Shown here one piece after another: positions 52,979 through 62,367 of a stretch of 63,953 nt of DNA (positions within the stretch are counted from its first letter, which is position 1; each line of letters opens with the position of its first letter). This stretch comes from Fidelibacterota bacterium (GTDB lineage Bacteria > Pseudomonadota > Alphaproteobacteria > Rhodospirillales > Rhodospirillaceae). The position numbers and the translations under genes are program-made. The notes beneath the pieces are model-generated. The model was not told where the DNA came from. It saw nothing but the letters and a program-made list of their open reading frames with translations, and ran no database searches. The DNA lies in NCBI GenBank assembly GCA_947476625.1, contig CANJRA010000015.1, positions 1 to 63,953 of the forward strand, read 5' to 3'.

Positions 52979-53557
52979 TCAGCCGGGTTCTTTTAGCCAG
53001 GTCTTTTCGCGCAGGGCCAATAGATCCTGTTTGCGCGCCACCAGCCGTTTGCTGAGAAAAGAATAGAAATACCAGTCCTTGAGCGCGAAGGGCAAAATGC
53101 CATACAGCCGCTTCTCGAGCGTTGTCCAGTCGACCTTGCTGCGGTCGGCGCGCCGCTTCGATGGGATGCGCCACAGGTCGAAATCGTACCGCGAGCGGGC
53201 GATTTTAAGCACCCGATGCATGACCTCGTGATCTTCCAGCACAAAGGGCCAGTGTTTGGTCGAGAAGCCGCCCGCCGCCCGCAGCGTCGCCGTGCGGAAG
53301 GTCTGGCCGAATCCGCCGGTCAGGCATTGATTGGTATAAATCCGCGACTTGGTCATCTTGCGGATCTGGCGTCGGCGTGTCGCGCCGCTCACGGGCGGGG
53401 CAGCGAGATCGACGGCCATCACCGAGCTTACATTGGGCGGGGCGGCGGCGAAGACTTCCGCGCAGCGCCGTAGATAGTGTGTTGGATAGAATGTGTCGGC
53501 ATCGCAGAACACGACAAATTCGGTGTCGACGTGGGCGAGGCCGCACTCCAAAGCGTC
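52979..53557 (-). pseudogene. Glycosyltransferase family 2, 5'-truncated
   Basis: The frame begins abruptly at the codons for LECGLAHVDTEFVVFCDAD, i.e. inside the GT-A fold just before the metal-binding DAD motif. An in-frame TAG lies 3 codons upstream at the junction. The rest (GGFGQTFRTATLRAAGGF, LEDHEVMHRVLK) is intact to the stop. The N-terminal nucleotide-binding third is missing. It abuts, head to head, a flippase fragment that also lacks its 5' part, so a deletion that removed the shared upstream region of two divergent genes is the simplest explanation. Confidence 0.75.
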
Positions 53558-53846
53558 CTATGGCCCGCTGGTGCTGCTCGTGGCCGCGGCGACAGTGACG
53601 ATTATCGGCTTCCCAATGGACGCGGCTTTGTTCGCCATGGGCCACGCCGGCATTCCCTTGCGCATTGGTGTCGGCGTCGTTTTAGTTGTCCAGTTGCCGC
53701 TGCTTTATTTTCTGACCCTGAACTTCGGTTCACTCGGTGCCGGCTTTGCCACGCTTATTGCTTCTGTCGTCACTGTCGCAGCAATGACGATCTTTACGCT
53801 GCGTGAACTGCGCCTTCGCACGTCGAGCGTAGTGGTGACCGCATGA
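53558..53846 (+). pseudogene. Polysaccharide flippase (Wzx/MATE-like), 3' fragment
   Basis: The plus frame reads YGPLVLLVAAATVTIIGFPM, then three further hydrophobic helices (IGVGVVLVVQLPLLYF, GAGFATLIASVVTVAAMTIF) to a TGA overlapping the next ATG. These are the last transmembrane helices of an oligosaccharide flippase. At least 300 residues are missing at the 5' side. The upstream codons of the open frame (from 53493) are antisense of the glycosyltransferase and not part of the protein. Confidence 0.7.
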
Positions 53847-54693: not shown

Positions 54694-54769
54694 GTCCCCA
54701 TCGTCTAGAGGCCTAGGACATCGCCCTTTCACGGCGGTAACCGGGGTTCGAATCCCCGTGGGGACGCCA
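54694..54769 (+). tRNA. tRNA-Glu (anticodon TTC)
   Basis: The acceptor GTCCCCA (54694-54700) pairs with TGGGGAC (54759-54765), followed by G and an encoded CCA. The anticodon loop CTTTCAC has TTC at 54728-54730. The GGTTCGAATCC T arm is present. It lies at the boundary between core genes and an accessory region. Confidence 0.97.
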
Positions 54770-55191: not shown

Positions 55192-55305
55192 ATGCGCCTT
55201 GAAGAGATCAAACCCAGAGCCTCCCTAAACGGCCTCGAACCCGCGGCGAGGACTCAGGTTCAAGCGATCCTGACCATCGAGAGCCGCGGCCAGTTCGCCG
55301 CATGA
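55192..55305 (+). CDS. 37-residue ORF overlapping hsdM, possible helicase N-terminal remnant
   Basis: ATG 55192 to TGA 55303-55305 overlaps the hsdM ATG at 55302 (ATGA). The peptide opens MRLEEIKPRASLNGLEP, which resembles the start of large SNF2-type helicases found beside some defence loci. The remaining 20 residues look unrelated. It may be a deletion remnant that now serves as a coupling leader for hsdM, or chance. Assignment rests on the short motif alone. Confidence 0.4.
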   Translation: MRLEEIKPRASLNGLEPAARTQVQAILTIESRGQFAA

Positions 55306-56792
55306 GCATTACCCTTTCACAACTCGAATCCCACCTCTGGGAATCAGCGAACATCTTGCGCGGGCCAGTCGATGCCGCCGACTTCAAGTCGTATGTATTC
55401 CCTTTGTTATTCTTCAAACGTCTATCGGATGTTCATGACGAAGAGCACACAGCGGCGCTGAAGGAATTTGATGGGGATGAGGAGTCGGCGCTGTTTCCGG
55501 AGAACTACAGCTTCCAGATTCCTGAGGACTGCCACTGGGCGGATGTACGCAAAGTAGCTTCAAATGTCGGCCAGGCCCTGCAAACCGCCATGCGGGGAAT
55601 CGAGCAGGCCAACCCACACACGCTTTACGGCATCTTTGGAGATGCGCAGTGGACAAACAAAGACCGGCTCTCGGATTCCTTACTGCGCGATCTCATCGAG
55701 CACTTCTCCCGACTCTCGCTCGGTAATTCAGCGGCCAAGGCGGATGTGCTGGGGCAGTCATACGAATACCTGATCAAGAAATTCGCCGACGCCACAAATA
55801 AGAAAGCAGGGGAGTTCTACACCCCGCGCTCCGTCGTGCGACTGATGGTGAACATTCTCGATCCCCGCGAGGGCGAGTCCATCTATGACCCCACCTGCGG
55901 TACCGGCGGCATGTTGTTAGAAGCCATCCACCATGTGCAAGAAACGCGGGGCGATGTTCGCACTCTATGGGGCAAGCTGTACGGCCAAGAGAAAAACCTC
56001 ACCACCTCAGCCATCGCACGGATGAATCTTTTCCTGCACGGCGCGGCGGACTTTCAGATCGTGCGTGGCGACACTCTGCGTAGCCCCGCGTTCTTCCTTG
56101 GCGACAGTCTCGCAACTTTTGACTGCGTCATTGCTAACCCGCCCTTCTCCTTAGAGAAGTGGGGAGATGAGGTCTGGGCCAGTGATCCTTATGGCCGCAA
56201 CTTCGCTGGCATGCCGCCCGCAAAAAGTGGCGACTACGCATTCGTCCAGCACATGATTAAGTCAATGGCACCCAAGACCGGGCGCATGGCCGTCGTCCTG
56301 CCGCATGGCGCACTGTTTCGTATGGGCAAAGAAGGCGAAATTCGTAAGAAGCTCCTTGGCATGGACCTTCTGGACGCTGTGATCGGCCTCGGTGCAAATC
56401 TCTTTTATGGAGCTGGTCTCGCCGCCTGCATCCTCATCTTTCGGCAAAAGAAGGTAAAGGACCGAAAGAACAAAGTGCTGATAGTCGATGCCTCGAAAGA
56501 GTTCAAAACGGGACGCGCCCAGAACGAACTTCTCCCCGAGCATGTTGAGCGCATTTACGGCTGGGTGCGCGACTACACAGATGTCGAAGGCATCGCCCGC
56601 GTCGTGACGCTCGAAGAAATCGCTGCCAACGACCATAACCTCAATATCTCGCGCTACGTCGAGCCAAAAGTCACAACCGAAGTTCTAACCGTAGAGGAGG
56701 CGAAGCAACGGTTGCGCAATAGCGCAGAGGCAGCATTTGCGGCGGAAGCAAGCCTCGTTGAGCTACTTAAGACCGAAGGCTTACTGAAATGA
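55302..56792 (+). CDS. hsdM: Type I restriction-modification methyltransferase subunit HsdM (first copy)
   Basis: This N6-adenine methyltransferase subunit has 496 residues. The N-terminal helical domain (SQLESHLWESANILRG, FPLLFFKRLSDVHDEE) leads into the SAM-binding motif YDPTCGTGGML (near residue 195) and the catalytic NPPF (near 279). The C-terminal DPYGRNFAGMPP and GALFRMGKEGEIRKKLL segments are the usual tail. It overlaps the second HsdM-HsdS gene by 4 nt. It is closely similar to the N-terminal half of that fusion, so the locus has two M paralogues. Confidence 0.95.
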   Translation: MSITLSQLESHLWESANILRGPVDAADFKSYVFPLLFFKRLSDVHDEEHTAALKEFDGDEESALFPENYSFQIPEDCHWADVRKVASNVGQALQTAMRGIEQANPHTLYGIFGDAQWTNKDRLSDSLLRDLIEHFSRLSLGNSAAKADVLGQSYEYLIKKFADATNKKAGEFYTPRSVVRLMVNILDPREGESIYDPTCGTGGMLLEAIHHVQETRGDVRTLWGKLYGQEKNLTTSAIARMNLFLHGAADFQIVRGDTLRSPAFFLGDSLATFDCVIANPPFSLEKWGDEVWASDPYGRNFAGMPPAKSGDYAFVQHMIKSMAPKTGRMAVVLPHGALFRMGKEGEIRKKLLGMDLLDAVIGLGANLFYGAGLAACILIFRQKKVKDRKNKVLIVDASKEFKTGRAQNELLPEHVERIYGWVRDYTDVEGIARVVTLEEIAANDHNLNISRYVEPKVTTEVLTVEEAKQRLRNSAEAAFAAEASLVELLKTEGLLK

Positions 56793-59419
56793 CCCGCATC
56801 ACCCAACAACAACTCGAGTCCTACCTATGGGGAGCCGCCGTACTCCTTCGAGGCACGATTGATGCTGGCGACTATAAGCAGTTCATCTTTCCACTGCTGT
56901 TCTTCAAGCGGCTATCCGATGTCTACGATGAGGAGACTGTCACCGCCCTACGGGAGTCCGACGGGGATCAGGACTTTGCGCTTTTCCCGGAGAACCACCG
57001 CTTCCAGGTTCCGGCGGACACGCATTGGCGGGAGCTTCGCAAGGTTAATCGCGATGTCGGTCGCACCTTGCAGCAGGCGATGCGATCCATTGAAGTGGCC
57101 AATCAAGACAAGCTGATGGGGATCTTTGGCGATGCGCAGTGGACAAACAAAGACCGCCTAGCCGATGCCATGCTGTGCGACCTCATCGAGCACTTCTCCA
57201 CGCTGGAACTCACCGTTGCAAACCTGCCCGAAGATGAGTTAGGCCAGGGCTATGAATACCTGATCAAGAAGTTCGCCGACGACTCCGGCCACACCGCCGC
57301 CGAGTTCTATACCAATCGCACCGTCGTCCACCTCATGACCGGGATGCTCGATGTGCAGCCCGGCGAGTCGGTGTATGACCCCACCTGTGGCTCGGGCGGC
57401 ATGCTGCTCTCCTGCATCACGTATTTACGGCGTGCGGGGAAGGAATGGCGGAATGTGAAGCTCTATGGTCAGGAGCGGAATCTCATGACCTCCTCCATCG
57501 CTCGGATGAACTGCTTCCTCCACGGCATCGAAGACTTCCGCATTGAGCGAGGCGATACTCTGGCGGAACCAAAGTTCGTCGAGGGGGATCGTCTCCGGCG
57601 CTTCGATGTTGTGCTCGCCAATCCGCCCTACTCGATCAAGCAGTGGAACCGGGAAGCCTTCGCCGCTGATCCCTGGGGGCGCAATCTTTTCGGCGTCCCG
57701 CCGCAGGGTCGTGCCGATTACGCCTTTCAGCAGCATATTCTGCAAAGTCTCAAGCCAAAGACGGGACGCTGCGCAGTCCTCTGGCCCCACGGCGTGCTTT
57801 TTCGAAATGATGAAGCAGAAATACGCCGCAAGCTCATTGAGGCCGACCTCATCGAGTGCGTCCTCGGCCTCGGCCCAAACCTTTTCTACAATTCGCCGAT
57901 GGAAGCCTGCGTCGTCATCTGTCGCACGCAGAAGCCCAAGGCCAGGCGCGGTAAAATTCTCTTCATCAACGCGGTCAACGAAGTCAATCGCGAACGCGCC
58001 CAGAGCTTCCTTAGTGAGGATAACTTGCAGCGGGTCGTCCACGCCTATCAGGATTTCAAAGACGAACCCGGCTTCACTCGCGTCGTTAATGCGGATGACA
58101 TTCGGGAGAAGGAGTGGAGCCTGAACATCTCGTTATTCGTCGTGAATGGCGAGCACAGGCGAACTGGAATGCGATCCTCCGGTGGTTCACTGGACCATGC
58201 ATTTACCCAGTGGCTGGCGAGTGCCGAAAGAACCCGCGCATCTCTAGCTGCGATTACTGGGGCCGCCGCCACCAGCGGTGTGCTCGCCGATATGCAGAAG
58301 ATGAAGGTTTACTTGCCGACCTGGGTGGATCGCTCCAAGTGGAGACGCTTCCCATTTGGAGATATCGCCGATTGCGTTCGTGAGCCCGGACAACCAACGC
58401 CCGCTGATTCTGAACGCTACATTGGTTTGGAACACATGGATACCGGTTCGCTGCATGTCCGGCGATGGGGCAGTGAAGCCGACTTGAAGGGGCGGAAGCT
58501 GAAGATGCGCAAAGGCGACATTCTCTTCGCCAAGCGCAATGCCTATCTCCGCCGCGTCGCTATCGCACCGCATGACGGATTCTTCTCGGCTCACGGAATG
58601 ATTCTGCGAGCGAAGCCAGACAAAGTCCTGCCGGAGTTTTTACCCTTCCTCATGATGAGCGACCGCTTCATGAACCGCGCCGTCGAGATTTCGGTAGGTT
58701 CGCTCTCGCCCACCATCAACTGGACCACGCTCAAGCAGGAGACCTTCGACCTCCCTCCACTCGACCAGCAGCGTCGCATCGCGGAAATCCTCTGGGCAGT
58801 GGATGACCAAATAAATGCATATCAAGAGGTGCGAATTCAGCTGGAAGCGTTCCGAATGTCGTTGTTTGGCGGTCACCTTGCCCACTTTCCAAGAAAACCA
58901 TTGTCCGAGGTTGCAGAATTTCTTGATGGGAAGCGCATCCCCTTGAGTGAAGTTGAACGCGCAAAGCGAAAGGGCCCCTATCCGTACTACGGCGCTTCAG
59001 GGGTGATCGATTATGTTGACGACTTTATTTTCGATGAACCGCTGATACTGTTGAGCGAAGATGGTTTTAATCTTGTAAATCGTAACGCACGGATTGCTTT
59101 CAAGGCCGAGGGGAAGGTGTGGGTTAATAACCATGCTCATGTTTTACGCCCGAAGGCGGGGATTAATATCGACTTCCTCGTCGATTACCTCGAGTCCATT
59201 TCACTTGAGCCCTTTATCACAGGCACCTACCAAAGGAAGCTCAATAAGTCTGAGTGCGAGCGTATCCCAGTAGTGGTTCCACCCATTAAAACTCAAAGCG
59301 ACATTGCTGAAACAATCGGATGTGTAGTTGAAGCGTTAAACTCCACGGATTGTCATATTGCGGCGAGCAAAAACCTTATTTCGTTATTGCTTTCAATTTT
59401 CTCAGAAGTCTCCTCATGA
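56789..59419 (+). CDS. HsdM-HsdS fusion: methyltransferase and specificity subunit
   Basis: The 876-residue protein joins a complete HsdM (about 1-460; SAM motif YDPTCGSGGML near 195, catalytic NPPY near 278) to a specificity subunit (about 490-876). The HsdS part has two target-recognition domains: TRD1 about 505-655, then the conserved spacer PPLDQQRRIAEILWAVDDQ, then TRD2 about 698-830, then the closing conserved region VVVPPIKTQSDIAETIG. Start overlaps hsdM and stop overlaps hsdR (ATGA both times). From about 58880, within TRD2, the DNA is more AT-rich than the flanks, suggesting TRD replacement. A fusion of M and S in a system that also has a separate M is unusual. Confidence 0.93.
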   Translation: MTRITQQQLESYLWGAAVLLRGTIDAGDYKQFIFPLLFFKRLSDVYDEETVTALRESDGDQDFALFPENHRFQVPADTHWRELRKVNRDVGRTLQQAMRSIEVANQDKLMGIFGDAQWTNKDRLADAMLCDLIEHFSTLELTVANLPEDELGQGYEYLIKKFADDSGHTAAEFYTNRTVVHLMTGMLDVQPGESVYDPTCGSGGMLLSCITYLRRAGKEWRNVKLYGQERNLMTSSIARMNCFLHGIEDFRIERGDTLAEPKFVEGDRLRRFDVVLANPPYSIKQWNREAFAADPWGRNLFGVPPQGRADYAFQQHILQSLKPKTGRCAVLWPHGVLFRNDEAEIRRKLIEADLIECVLGLGPNLFYNSPMEACVVICRTQKPKARRGKILFINAVNEVNRERAQSFLSEDNLQRVVHAYQDFKDEPGFTRVVNADDIREKEWSLNISLFVVNGEHRRTGMRSSGGSLDHAFTQWLASAERTRASLAAITGAAATSGVLADMQKMKVYLPTWVDRSKWRRFPFGDIADCVREPGQPTPADSERYIGLEHMDTGSLHVRRWGSEADLKGRKLKMRKGDILFAKRNAYLRRVAIAPHDGFFSAHGMILRAKPDKVLPEFLPFLMMSDRFMNRAVEISVGSLSPTINWTTLKQETFDLPPLDQQRRIAEILWAVDDQINAYQEVRIQLEAFRMSLFGGHLAHFPRKPLSEVAEFLDGKRIPLSEVERAKRKGPYPYYGASGVIDYVDDFIFDEPLILLSEDGFNLVNRNARIAFKAEGKVWVNNHAHVLRPKAGINIDFLVDYLESISLEPFITGTYQRKLNKSECERIPVVVPPIKTQSDIAETIGCVVEALNSTDCHIAASKNLISLLLSIFSEVSS

Positions 59420-62367
59420 GCTTTAACGAAGCCAACACCGTCGAGCAGATGATCATCGATGCCGCGACCAGCCTCAAGAGCGGTGCGGGTAGCTCTGCCG
59501 TGCGCGAGGACGCGTCCTCGCGCTGGACCTACGTGGAGGGGACGGCGCTACCCCGTCAGCCGGGCGAGGTGATGGTGGAGCCGTGGGTGCGGGATGCGCT
59601 CATTGCTCTAAATCCCGAGATCGCTGAACAGCCGGATCGGGCGGACGAGGTGATCTATGCGCTGCGTGCAATCCTGCTCTCCGTGCAGGGCGACGGGCTG
59701 GTGCGGGCAAACGAGAACTTTATGGCCTGGCTGCGCGGCGAGAAGACGATGCCCTTTGGCCCGAACGGCGAGCATGTAGCGGTGCGGCTGGTGGATTTTA
59801 CCGATCCGGGCAAGAACCGGCTGACGGTGGTGAACCAGTGGACCTATCAGACGGGTAGCGTGACCAAACGCTTCGACGTGGTCTTTGCGGTCAACGGTCT
59901 GCCCCTAGTAATTTGCGAGGCGAAGACCCCGACGCGCAGCGCGGTGACGTGGTTCGACGGGGCGTATCAGGTTAACGAGATATATGAGAAGGAGATACCG
60001 GCCATGTTTGTGCCTAACGTTTTCTCCTTCGCCACCGATGGCCGCCTCCTGCGTTACGGCAGCATCCGCATGCCCATCGACCTCTGGGGGCCGTGGCGTG
60101 ATGACGACAATCAGGACGAAGGTGAGCTGCGCCACGTGCGGGCCACAGTTGAGAGCCTGATGAGGCCCGCCGTTGTGCTCGACATCCTGCAAAACTTTAC
60201 CCTCTTCGCCACAGATAAGAAGCACCGACGCATCAAGGTGATCTGCCGCTACCAGCAATACGAGACGACGAACAAAATCGTGGCCCGCGTGATTGCCGGG
60301 TATCCGAAGAAGGGCCTCATCTGGCATTTCCAGGGCAGCGGCAAGAGCCTGCTGATGGTCTTCGCCGCCCAAAAGCTGCGGATGCATCCAAAGCTAGGCA
60401 ATCCTACGGTGCTCATCGTCGTGGACCGCATCGACCTCGACACTCAGATTACCGCCACATTCAATGCAGCGGATGTGGCGAACATGGTGGGCGTGAGCGA
60501 CCGCAAGGAACTGCAAACGCTCTTAGGACAGGACGTGCGCAAGGTCCTGATCACGACCATTCACAAGTTCGGCGAGGCTGGCGGTGTTCTGAACGACCGC
60601 AAGAATATCATCGTGATGGTAGATGAGGCGCACCGCACGCAGGAGGGAGACCTGGGCCGCAAAATGCGCGAGGCGTTGCCCAATGCCTTCCTCTTCGGCC
60701 TGACCGGGACGCCGATAAATAGAGCGGACCGCAACACCTTCTGGGCTTTCGGCGCGGACGAAGATACCGCTGGCTACATGAGCCGCTACTCCTTCCAGGA
60801 CAGCATTCGTGACAAGGCCACGCTGCCGCTTCACTTCGAAGCGCCGACCGTGAAGCTCAAAATTGATCAGGCAGCGATTGATGAAGCCTACAAGGTGATC
60901 ACCGACGACCTGAGCGAGCAGGACCGCGATGATCTCGCCAAACGCGCCGCCAAGATGGCCGTGCTGGTGAAGAACCCCGAGCGGGTACGTGCCGTGGTGG
61001 AGCACATCGTGCAGCACTACCAGACCAAGGTGGAGCCGAATGGCTTCAAGGCGCAGGTGGTGTGTTTTGATCGTGAATGTTGTGTGCTCTACAAGAAAGC
61101 CATGGACGAGTTCATCGACCCCGAGGCGAGCGCAATCGTGATGAGCGCCGGTCAGAAAGACCCGCCGGAATGGAAGGTTCATCTTCGGGATAAGGACTCT
61201 GAGGAAAAACTGCTCGACCGCTTCCGTTCGCCAGCCGATCCGCTGAAATTTGTAATCGTCACTAGCAAGTTGCTCACGGGCTTCGACGCTCCAATCCTTC
61301 AGGCAATGTATCTCGATAAACCGATGAAGGATCACAACCTCCTTCAAGCCATATGCCGCGTGAACCGTACTTACGGCCAAGCCAAGACCCACGGCTTGAT
61401 TGTCGATTACATCGGCATCTTCGACGATGTGGCTAAGGCGCTAGATTTCGACGAGAAGGCCGTTCAGCAGGTGGTGAGCAACATTGATGAATTGCGCCAG
61501 GTCTTGCCGCTGCAGATGCAGAAGTGCCTAGCGTTTTTCCCAAATGTGGACCGCAGTGTTGGCGGTTACGAAGGTCTGTTGGCCGCTCAGCAATGCCTGC
61601 CAAACAACGAGGTGCGTGATAAATTTGCCGGTGAGTACACCGTGCTGGGCACTATCTGGGAAGCCCTATCACCTGATCCCTGCCTGGGTGCCTACGCCAA
61701 GGATTATAAGTGGCTAACCCAGGTCTATGAATCCGTGAAGCCCGTGAGCGGCAACGGCAAGCTGCTTTGGCATCGCCTGGGCGCGAAAACTATCGAACTG
61801 ATCAATGAGAACGTTCATGTCGAAGCGGTGCGCGATGACATCGAGGCGCTGGTGCTCGATGCTGATGTGCTGGAGGGCATTCTAAAGGACGCCAATCCCG
61901 GTAAGAAGGCACGAGAGGTAGAAATCAAGCTTATTGCTCGGTTGCGCAAGCATGCCGGAAATCCGAAGTTTAAGGAACTCGGCGAGCGATTGGAGAAAAT
62001 CCGCGAGAAGCATGAACAAGGTCTGCTCAATAGCTTGGAATTCCTCAAAGCCATACTCGAAATTGCCAAGGACACCGTAGAAGCCGAGAAGCAGACCGAC
62101 CCCAAAGAGGAACGGGACCACGCTTTCGCCGCCCTGACTGACCTCTTTAATGAAGTGAAGGACAAGAACACTCACGTCATTGTGGAGCGTATCGTCGCCG
62201 ACATTGACGCCATTGTACGGCAGGTGCGCTTCGACGGCTGGCAGACAACCACTCAAGGTGAACGGGAAGTGCAGCAAGCACTCCGACGCACTCTGCTCAA
62301 ATACAAGTTACACACTGACCAGGAGCTGTTCGACAAGTCTTATGGCTATATTCGGCAGTATTACTGA
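59416..62367 (+). CDS. hsdR: Type I restriction enzyme subunit HsdR
   Basis: This is the motor and nuclease subunit, 983 residues from ATG 59416, which overlaps the fusion stop. The frame is open further upstream, but that part is antisense to reason. The N-terminal PD-(D/E)xK nuclease has RFDVVFAVNG and VICEAKTPTRS (Lys near residue 169). The helicase has Walker A QGSGKSLLMVFAAQ (about 305), DEAH in VDEAHRTQEGDLG (about 403), LFGLTGTPINR, and the late motifs LLTGFDAPILQAMYLDK and LLQAICRVNRTY. A C-terminal helical domain contacts the methyltransferase. All catalytic motifs are intact. Confidence 0.95.
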   Translation: MSFNEANTVEQMIIDAATSLKSGAGSSAVREDASSRWTYVEGTALPRQPGEVMVEPWVRDALIALNPEIAEQPDRADEVIYALRAILLSVQGDGLVRANENFMAWLRGEKTMPFGPNGEHVAVRLVDFTDPGKNRLTVVNQWTYQTGSVTKRFDVVFAVNGLPLVICEAKTPTRSAVTWFDGAYQVNEIYEKEIPAMFVPNVFSFATDGRLLRYGSIRMPIDLWGPWRDDDNQDEGELRHVRATVESLMRPAVVLDILQNFTLFATDKKHRRIKVICRYQQYETTNKIVARVIAGYPKKGLIWHFQGSGKSLLMVFAAQKLRMHPKLGNPTVLIVVDRIDLDTQITATFNAADVANMVGVSDRKELQTLLGQDVRKVLITTIHKFGEAGGVLNDRKNIIVMVDEAHRTQEGDLGRKMREALPNAFLFGLTGTPINRADRNTFWAFGADEDTAGYMSRYSFQDSIRDKATLPLHFEAPTVKLKIDQAAIDEAYKVITDDLSEQDRDDLAKRAAKMAVLVKNPERVRAVVEHIVQHYQTKVEPNGFKAQVVCFDRECCVLYKKAMDEFIDPEASAIVMSAGQKDPPEWKVHLRDKDSEEKLLDRFRSPADPLKFVIVTSKLLTGFDAPILQAMYLDKPMKDHNLLQAICRVNRTYGQAKTHGLIVDYIGIFDDVAKALDFDEKAVQQVVSNIDELRQVLPLQMQKCLAFFPNVDRSVGGYEGLLAAQQCLPNNEVRDKFAGEYTVLGTIWEALSPDPCLGAYAKDYKWLTQVYESVKPVSGNGKLLWHRLGAKTIELINENVHVEAVRDDIEALVLDADVLEGILKDANPGKKAREVEIKLIARLRKHAGNPKFKELGERLEKIREKHEQGLLNSLEFLKAILEIAKDTVEAEKQTDPKEERDHAFAALTDLFNEVKDKNTHVIVERIVADIDAIVRQVRFDGWQTTTQGEREVQQALRRTLLKYKLHTDQELFDKSYGYIRQYY

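Follow-up and report, generated by a model that had tools for sequence, protein, structure and literature searches.

A natural fusion of the second modification subunit with the specificity subunit in a PacII-like type I restriction–modification locus

The window analysed here is the whole 63,953-nucleotide stretch of contig CANJRA010000015.1 (GenBank assembly GCA_947476625.1, Fidelibacterota bacterium). It carries a type I restriction–modification (RM) locus of three genes: hsdM1, encoding a modification (M) subunit; a single open frame, hereafter M2~S, in which a second M subunit is continuous with a specificity (S) subunit; and hsdR, encoding the nuclease and translocase subunit. Open reading frames (ORFs) and Pfam matches agree on this succession and on the two Methylase_S stretches of the fused frame (Table 1), as had been proposed in an original prediction made from the sequence alone, and PADLOC gives the same assignments (HsdM, HsdM + S, HsdR). 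HsdR scores 518 bits against TIGR00348, above the NCBIfam cut-off, and its DVVF..EAK (from residue 154), GSGKS (at 307) and DEAH (at 403) motifs are all intact; its start was taken as ATG 59416, the 1005-aa frame from TTG 59350 being the mechanically longest ORF. Three ATGA overlaps had been claimed for the gene junctions. All three exist, at 55302, 56789 and 59416, but three genes have only two junctions, hsdM1/fusion (56789) and fusion/hsdR (59416): the ATGA at 55302 overlaps hsdM1 with an upstream 37-codon ORF (55192–55305).

Table 1. Features of the RM locus (window coordinates; aa, amino-acid positions or lengths; TRD, target recognition domain; m6A, N6-methyladenine; m4C, N4-methylcytosine)
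Feature	Position	Strand	Details and basis
hsdM1, m6A-type M subunit	55302..56792	+	496 aa; Pfam HsdM_N + N6_Mtase
AGEF / NPPF of hsdM1	55806-55817 / 56136-56147	+	motif pair
hsdM2~hsdS fusion	56789..59419	+	876 aa, single open frame; Pfam HsdM_N + N6_Mtase + two Methylase_S stretches
M2 domain of the fusion, probably m4C-type, including C-terminal helix aa 468-490	56789..58258	+	PDB match; helix from AlphaFold2 model
AAEF / NPPY of the M2 domain	57296-57307 / 57620-57631	+	motif pair
Linker aa 491-512 (~22 residues), from M2 tail helix to S	58259..58324	+	alignment A1 and junction comparison; boundaries approximate
TRD1, related to the CCC-reading PacII TRD1	58325..58759	+	contact positions R583, N584, Y586, L587, R589, H602
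Conserved helix CR1, aa 658-691	58760..58861	+	AlphaFold2 model; LPPLDQQRRIAEILW in CR1 region (alignment A1)
TRD2, predicted adenine-side half-site domain	58862..59284	+	Methylase_S aa 704-843
Conserved helix CR2, aa 833-872	59285..59404	+	AlphaFold2 model
hsdR, nuclease/translocase subunit	59416..62367	+	983 aa from ATG 59416; Pfam HSDR_N + SWI2_SNF2

The two M subunits are 55% identical to each other, and each has its own counterpart in PacII, the closest solved relative of both M parts and of the first target recognition domain (TRD1). The best PDB chain for M1 is 7vru_A, the M1 subunit of PacII (E 4.6e-172, 576 bits, versus 233 bits for the best non-PacII chain), and that for the M part of the fusion is 7vru_B, PacII M2 (E 2.4e-194 over aa 2–478, 651 bits versus 201). 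In PacII, whose structure (7VRU) is an M1 + M2 + S heterotrimer with each M serving one half-site, M1 carries AGEF and NPPF and makes m6A while M2 carries AAEF and NPPY and makes m4C (Zhu 2022, PMC9613975). NPPF in the first M and NPPY in the second had been correctly recognized at the outset but taken as equivalent, whereas in published work the F-to-Y difference distinguishes m6A subunits from m4C ones (PMC9613975).

The same distinction runs through the relatives of the locus, which were collected by scanning one genome per species across 84,980 species, the best 80 of 233 confirmed loci being analysed. AAEFYT and NPPY occur together in 79 of 82 M2-type frames and AGEFYT with NPPF in 67 of 73 M1-type frames; the three and six others, without the full motif pair, are pieces or are cut by contig ends. 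In a tree, a single branch (support 0.83, length 0.50) separates all 79 M2 rows from the 68 M1 rows. At each of the 18 columns that distinguish the two subunit types, window M1 has the M1 residue, and the M2 signature is likewise complete, a comparison that is partly circular, since the window rows belonged to that set. A recent tandem duplication of hsdM was ruled out by the 55% identity and by the tree, in which a long branch divides the two sequences and each groups with the M1 or M2 rows, respectively, of many phyla; the longest ungapped repeat shared by hsdM1 and the M2 region (247 nt at 72%) also counts against it. The M part of the fusion is probably an m4C-type subunit, m4C activity itself being predicted from these likenesses.

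Within the S part, TRD1 matches residues 9–184 of 7vru_C, the PacII S subunit, with an E value of 8.4e-49. PacII TRD1 is the domain that positions the target cytosine, and it reads CCC (PMC9613975). TRD2 gave only weak matches in the PDB, and these indicate no target. The S subunit of Methanoculleus sp. Afa-1 (locus L003) is 72% identical to that of the window over its whole length (residues 1–369 of the S part), and to judge from this similarity the two probably share a target. The TRD1 contact positions of related S subunits mostly fall into a few covarying classes (R-R-Y-Q-K-H/D, R-R-Y-L-K-T and R-N-Y-L-R-H/D, the window being in the third), with exceptions such as L016, L017, L018 and L058; these classes probably correspond to different half-sites. 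An AlphaFold2 model of the fusion, built from alignment A1 (24 rows, with 15 of the 17 fused loci described below and 8 M2-only rows), was used for helix positions only. Queried with this model, Foldseek ranked 7vru_B first and placed 7vru_A and 7vru_C within the best nine rows.

In the host genome (50 contigs, 100% complete by tool estimate), Methylase_S matches lie solely inside the fusion. A free S elsewhere in the genome is thereby ruled out, and M1 is left with no other visible S to serve. This accords with the earlier proposal that each M could serve one half of the target, an arrangement that the PacII structure displays for the unfused form.

M2 and S form one frame in 17 of the best 80 related loci and separate frames in 47, the other 16 having no S within the retained stretch; because the loci were ranked with the fused query, 17 of 80 overstates the frequency of the fusion. 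Fusion of M1 to S was found in none of the 80. The recurrence of M2~S rules out a sequencing or local assembly join as its source. The fused loci come from archaea (Methanoculleus, Methanomassiliicoccus or Methanomassiliicoccales) and from bacteria (Leptospirales, Elusimicrobia, Armatimonadota, Acidobacteria, Bacillota, Proteobacteria, Methylococcaceae, Geobacteraceae, Riflebacteria, Akkermansiaceae and Spartobacteria), all but that of Methanoculleus sp. Afa-1 (16 of 17) being from metagenome-assembled genomes. In 14 of these 17 loci an M1 adjoins the fusion, that of L006 being broken into three. Three of the fused frames are not intact: in L007 a stop interrupts M2 near its start, and the frames of L009 and L011 run off the contig.

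This gene content places the locus among known RM types as follows. It is not a classical type I system, in which two identical M subunits come from one gene, since two dissimilar M genes are present; nor is it of type IIB, IIG or ISP, in which the nuclease is fused to the M or M/S polypeptide, since hsdR is separate and has its own nuclease and SWI2/SNF2 domains. The adjacent unlike M subunits with NPPF and NPPY, the AGEF/AAEF pair and the nearest relatives, PacII M1 and M2, are those of the non-canonical m6A/m4C type I group. The class of type I systems with two unlike M subunits was founded by Morgan et al. 2016, according to PMC9613975 and PMC10569733, and the suspicion that the locus might represent an undescribed class falls with these reports and that of Zhu 2022 (PMC9613975). 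The locus resembles PacII in its two unlike M subunits and in an S with a TRD1 homologous to the cytosine-type TRD1 of PacII and a different TRD2; unlike PacII, in which M1, M2 and S are three chains, it has M2 and S in one, and three of the six TRD1 contact residues differ.

The locus also has the composition that defines type IMS (HsdM fused to an HsdS with one or two TRDs, HsdR separate; Roberts 2012, PMC3510504). The known examples, active M–S fusions of EcoKI (Roberts 2012, PMC3510504) and of Staphylococcus aureus CC398-1 (Bower 2018, PMC6158711), likewise join M to a two-TRD S and keep HsdR apart, but they were engineered from classical systems with identical M subunits, whereas the window fusion is natural and is accompanied by a distinct, dedicated M1. 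The engineered EcoKI enzyme, thought most probably to contain one M and one M~S, required added free M in vitro but apparently not in vivo (PMC3510504). A natural 638-aa M chain, the Vibrio vulnificus YJ016 methyltransferase (PDB 7eew), matches the window M part over its residues 97–336 and, weakly (E 0.0023), the TRD2 part over residues 470–617, but unlike the fusion it would, from its length, be too short for an M and two TRDs. We know of no M1/M2 pair for this enzyme. The PADLOC profile PDLC03038 ('MTase_I') matches residues 1–686 of the fusion, that is M and the first part of S, with 1167 bits; it spans M and S as the fusion does, but its label is that of a type I methyltransferase only, with no reference to m4C or to fusion. 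Since the profile is 896 positions long, the proteins from which it was built probably included fused ones. No description of a natural M2~S fusion was recognized in searches of the open-licence literature, outside which lay the founding paper and REBASE. The two-M type I class is already known, and the M2~S fusion alone goes beyond the literature consulted; we do not claim that it is unpublished. The fusion opens no new class and is a real, recurring variant of the published two-M kind.

We consider it highly probable, from the sequence comparisons above, that the locus is a complete and probably working non-canonical m6A/m4C (PacII-like, M1M2S) type I RM system with M2 and S joined in a single chain. 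Gene structure, family, motifs and distribution are direct observations; a subunit composition R2(M1)(M2~S), m4C formation, the half-site assignment and activity are inferred, as the most likely reading. One M1 and one M2~S chain would form the methyltransferase, M2 sitting at the half-site of TRD1 and M1 at that of TRD2. TRD1 would present a cytosine to the M2 domain, yielding m4C on one strand, and TRD2 an adenine to M1, yielding m6A on the other. Two HsdR subunits would join this core, and unmethylated sites would trigger ATP-driven translocation and cutting. In PacII, M2 bound S only once M1 had done so (PMC9613975); the fusion would set M2:S at 1:1 and replace this M1-dependent contact.

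Several observations weigh against this reading. NPPY is not proof of m4C, because PacII M2 also methylated adenine once the target bases were swapped (PMC9613975). Of the six contact residues of PacII TRD1, R75, Y78 and H94 are kept in the window, but R76, Q79 and K81 are replaced by N, L and R; a CCC target is therefore not to be assumed. The NCBIfam hsdM model matches both M parts, with scores below its curated cut-off (225.5 and 196.7 versus 242.75 bits). R29, described in the PacII paper as conserved in M2 and not in M1 (PMC9613975), is present in 78 of 79 M2 rows, but 61 of 68 M1 rows, window M1 included, have it too (five have K and two a gap), and it is no M2 mark in this wider set. 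The AlphaFold2 model of the fusion is of moderate quality (predicted local distance difference test score 73.4, predicted template modelling score 0.46, with a weak methyltransferase core), and the Foldseek fits to the PacII chains are loose, with root-mean-square deviations of 4–7 Å. Finally, M1 was not seen in three of the 17 fused loci (L009, L011 and L017): the L009 contig starts within M2, and the 0.9–1.4 kb available upstream in L011 and L017 is taken up by a different frame.

The first two of these points also bear on an alternative in which the architecture is the same but both M subunits methylate adenine, giving m6A on both strands, the NPPY subunit being an adenine enzyme with an adenine TRD1. 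The base-swap result and the three replaced contact residues are compatible with it; against it, TRD1 is homologous to the cytosine-presenting TRD1 of PacII and retains half of its contacts, and the M2 signature is complete. We regard this alternative as improbable.

Somewhat less probable again is that the fused gene is translated or processed into free S (and free M2), so that an ordinary three-chain M1 + M2 + S enzyme does the work. The linker does contain ATG codons (M504 and M507), and proteolysis or stalling has been suggested as the source of free M in the engineered EcoKI fusion (PMC3510504). By eye, however, no ribosome-binding site precedes the linker ATGs; in 11 of 17 fused relatives the stretch of about 30 residues ahead of S lacks Met (a comparison of ATG starts only); and the dedicated M1 makes free M unnecessary. 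Least probable of all, and very unlikely in our view, is that M2~S acts alone or as a dimer, with a redundant or silent M1, as the apparent in vivo independence of engineered EcoKI M–S and the broken M1 of L006 might suggest. In the window the M1 motifs are intact, hsdM1 overlaps the fusion by ATGA and M1 has its diagnostic residue in every column; M2–S binding was absent without M1 in PacII (PMC9613975); and M1 accompanies the fusion in 14 of 17 fused loci, the other three having too little upstream sequence to decide.

If the M1 + M2~S composition holds, the locus is the natural counterpart, in a type I group with unlike M subunits, of the M fused to a two-TRD S that the literature consulted knows from engineering. 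It would then offer a natural test case for the role of assembly order, M1 binding first as in PacII, and an m4C/m6A methyltransferase of fixed stoichiometry whose expression may be simpler than that of the three-chain form. More speculatively, M2~S might be a ready-assembled half-enzyme for the cytosine side, able to read DNA by itself, and M1 the limiting subunit that joins last and activates it, an idea we hold only tentatively. If true, it would be a repeatedly used assembly switch, as the M2 tree alternates between fused and split states.

That unrooted tree has 79 rows, including 16 fused loci and the window; L007 and L038, whose M2 is short or broken, were dropped, and 16 of the 79 rows bear no fused or split state. 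The fused state requires at least 10 changes, four of them forced by well-supported branches. Shuffled states gave a mean of 15.3 changes, and none of 500 shuffles was as low as the observed 10. The fused state is thus clustered but does not form one clade. The M2 of L024 shares 89% identity with that of the window, and the S of L024 is found about 2.8 kb away. The junctions are of at least two types: P-x-W shortly before S in 11 of 17 fused loci and in the window, and, in L004 and L011, an N-terminus resembling the unfused S of the same clade. A single origin of the fusion is supported neither by the tree nor by the junctions; because the root was not inferred, gain and loss of the fusion are indistinguishable. 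The pattern reads as repeated fusion or splitting, or as exchange of S by recombination. Extra defence-like genes lie inside the operon in both split (L022, L026 and L045) and fused (L016 and L020) relatives. Of ten such extra frames tested, seven have a Pfam family: HNH, OLD-like AAA (AAA_21), DUF4062, Schlafen AlbA_2 (with a Fic-like C-terminus) and GmrSD (GmrSD_N).

A set less tilted toward the fusion, the 398 genomes of the host phylum, contained 12 matches at E <= 1e-140, the window's own included. By frame length, the measure used for the 11 others, whose S was not searched for, the window frame alone is long enough to hold S (882 codons versus 495–581). NPPY is present in all 11 and AAEFYT in 10, and M1-type frames adjoin several; one match (L099) has two stops within the matched region. 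Among 60 relatives of the host, 23 have an HsdM-like match, the best being 49% identical; nine of the 11 best matches carry [AG]GEFYT and NPPF, two did not yield both motifs, and AAEF with NPPY was found in none. Such sporadic occurrence is as expected of horizontally moving defence genes. Two of these host-relative matches, L083 (745-codon frame) and L085 (651-codon frame), start about 250 and 154 codons into their frames, which possibly reflects N-terminal extensions, or only long open frames. Matches were also found in 3366 of 72,556 plasmid records, all below 60% identity; 33 of them cover at least 80% of the fusion, and among the 40 matches listed M and S are annotated as separate genes in most.

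Upstream of the locus, the 37-codon ORF that overlaps hsdM1 matched neither a Pfam family (E 0.01) nor any ORF of at least 60 codons in the 80 related loci (E 0.1). About 530 bases 5' of hsdM1 is a tRNA-Glu gene (54694–54769); together with the short ORF it could mark an island boundary or remnant. A Pfam family could be assigned to three of the eight flanking ORFs. Just before an FkbM methyltransferase gene, a minus-strand glycosyltransferase-like frame (52979–53551) overlaps a plus-strand frame that has no Pfam match (53493–53846), and one of the pair is probably a fragment or a non-gene.

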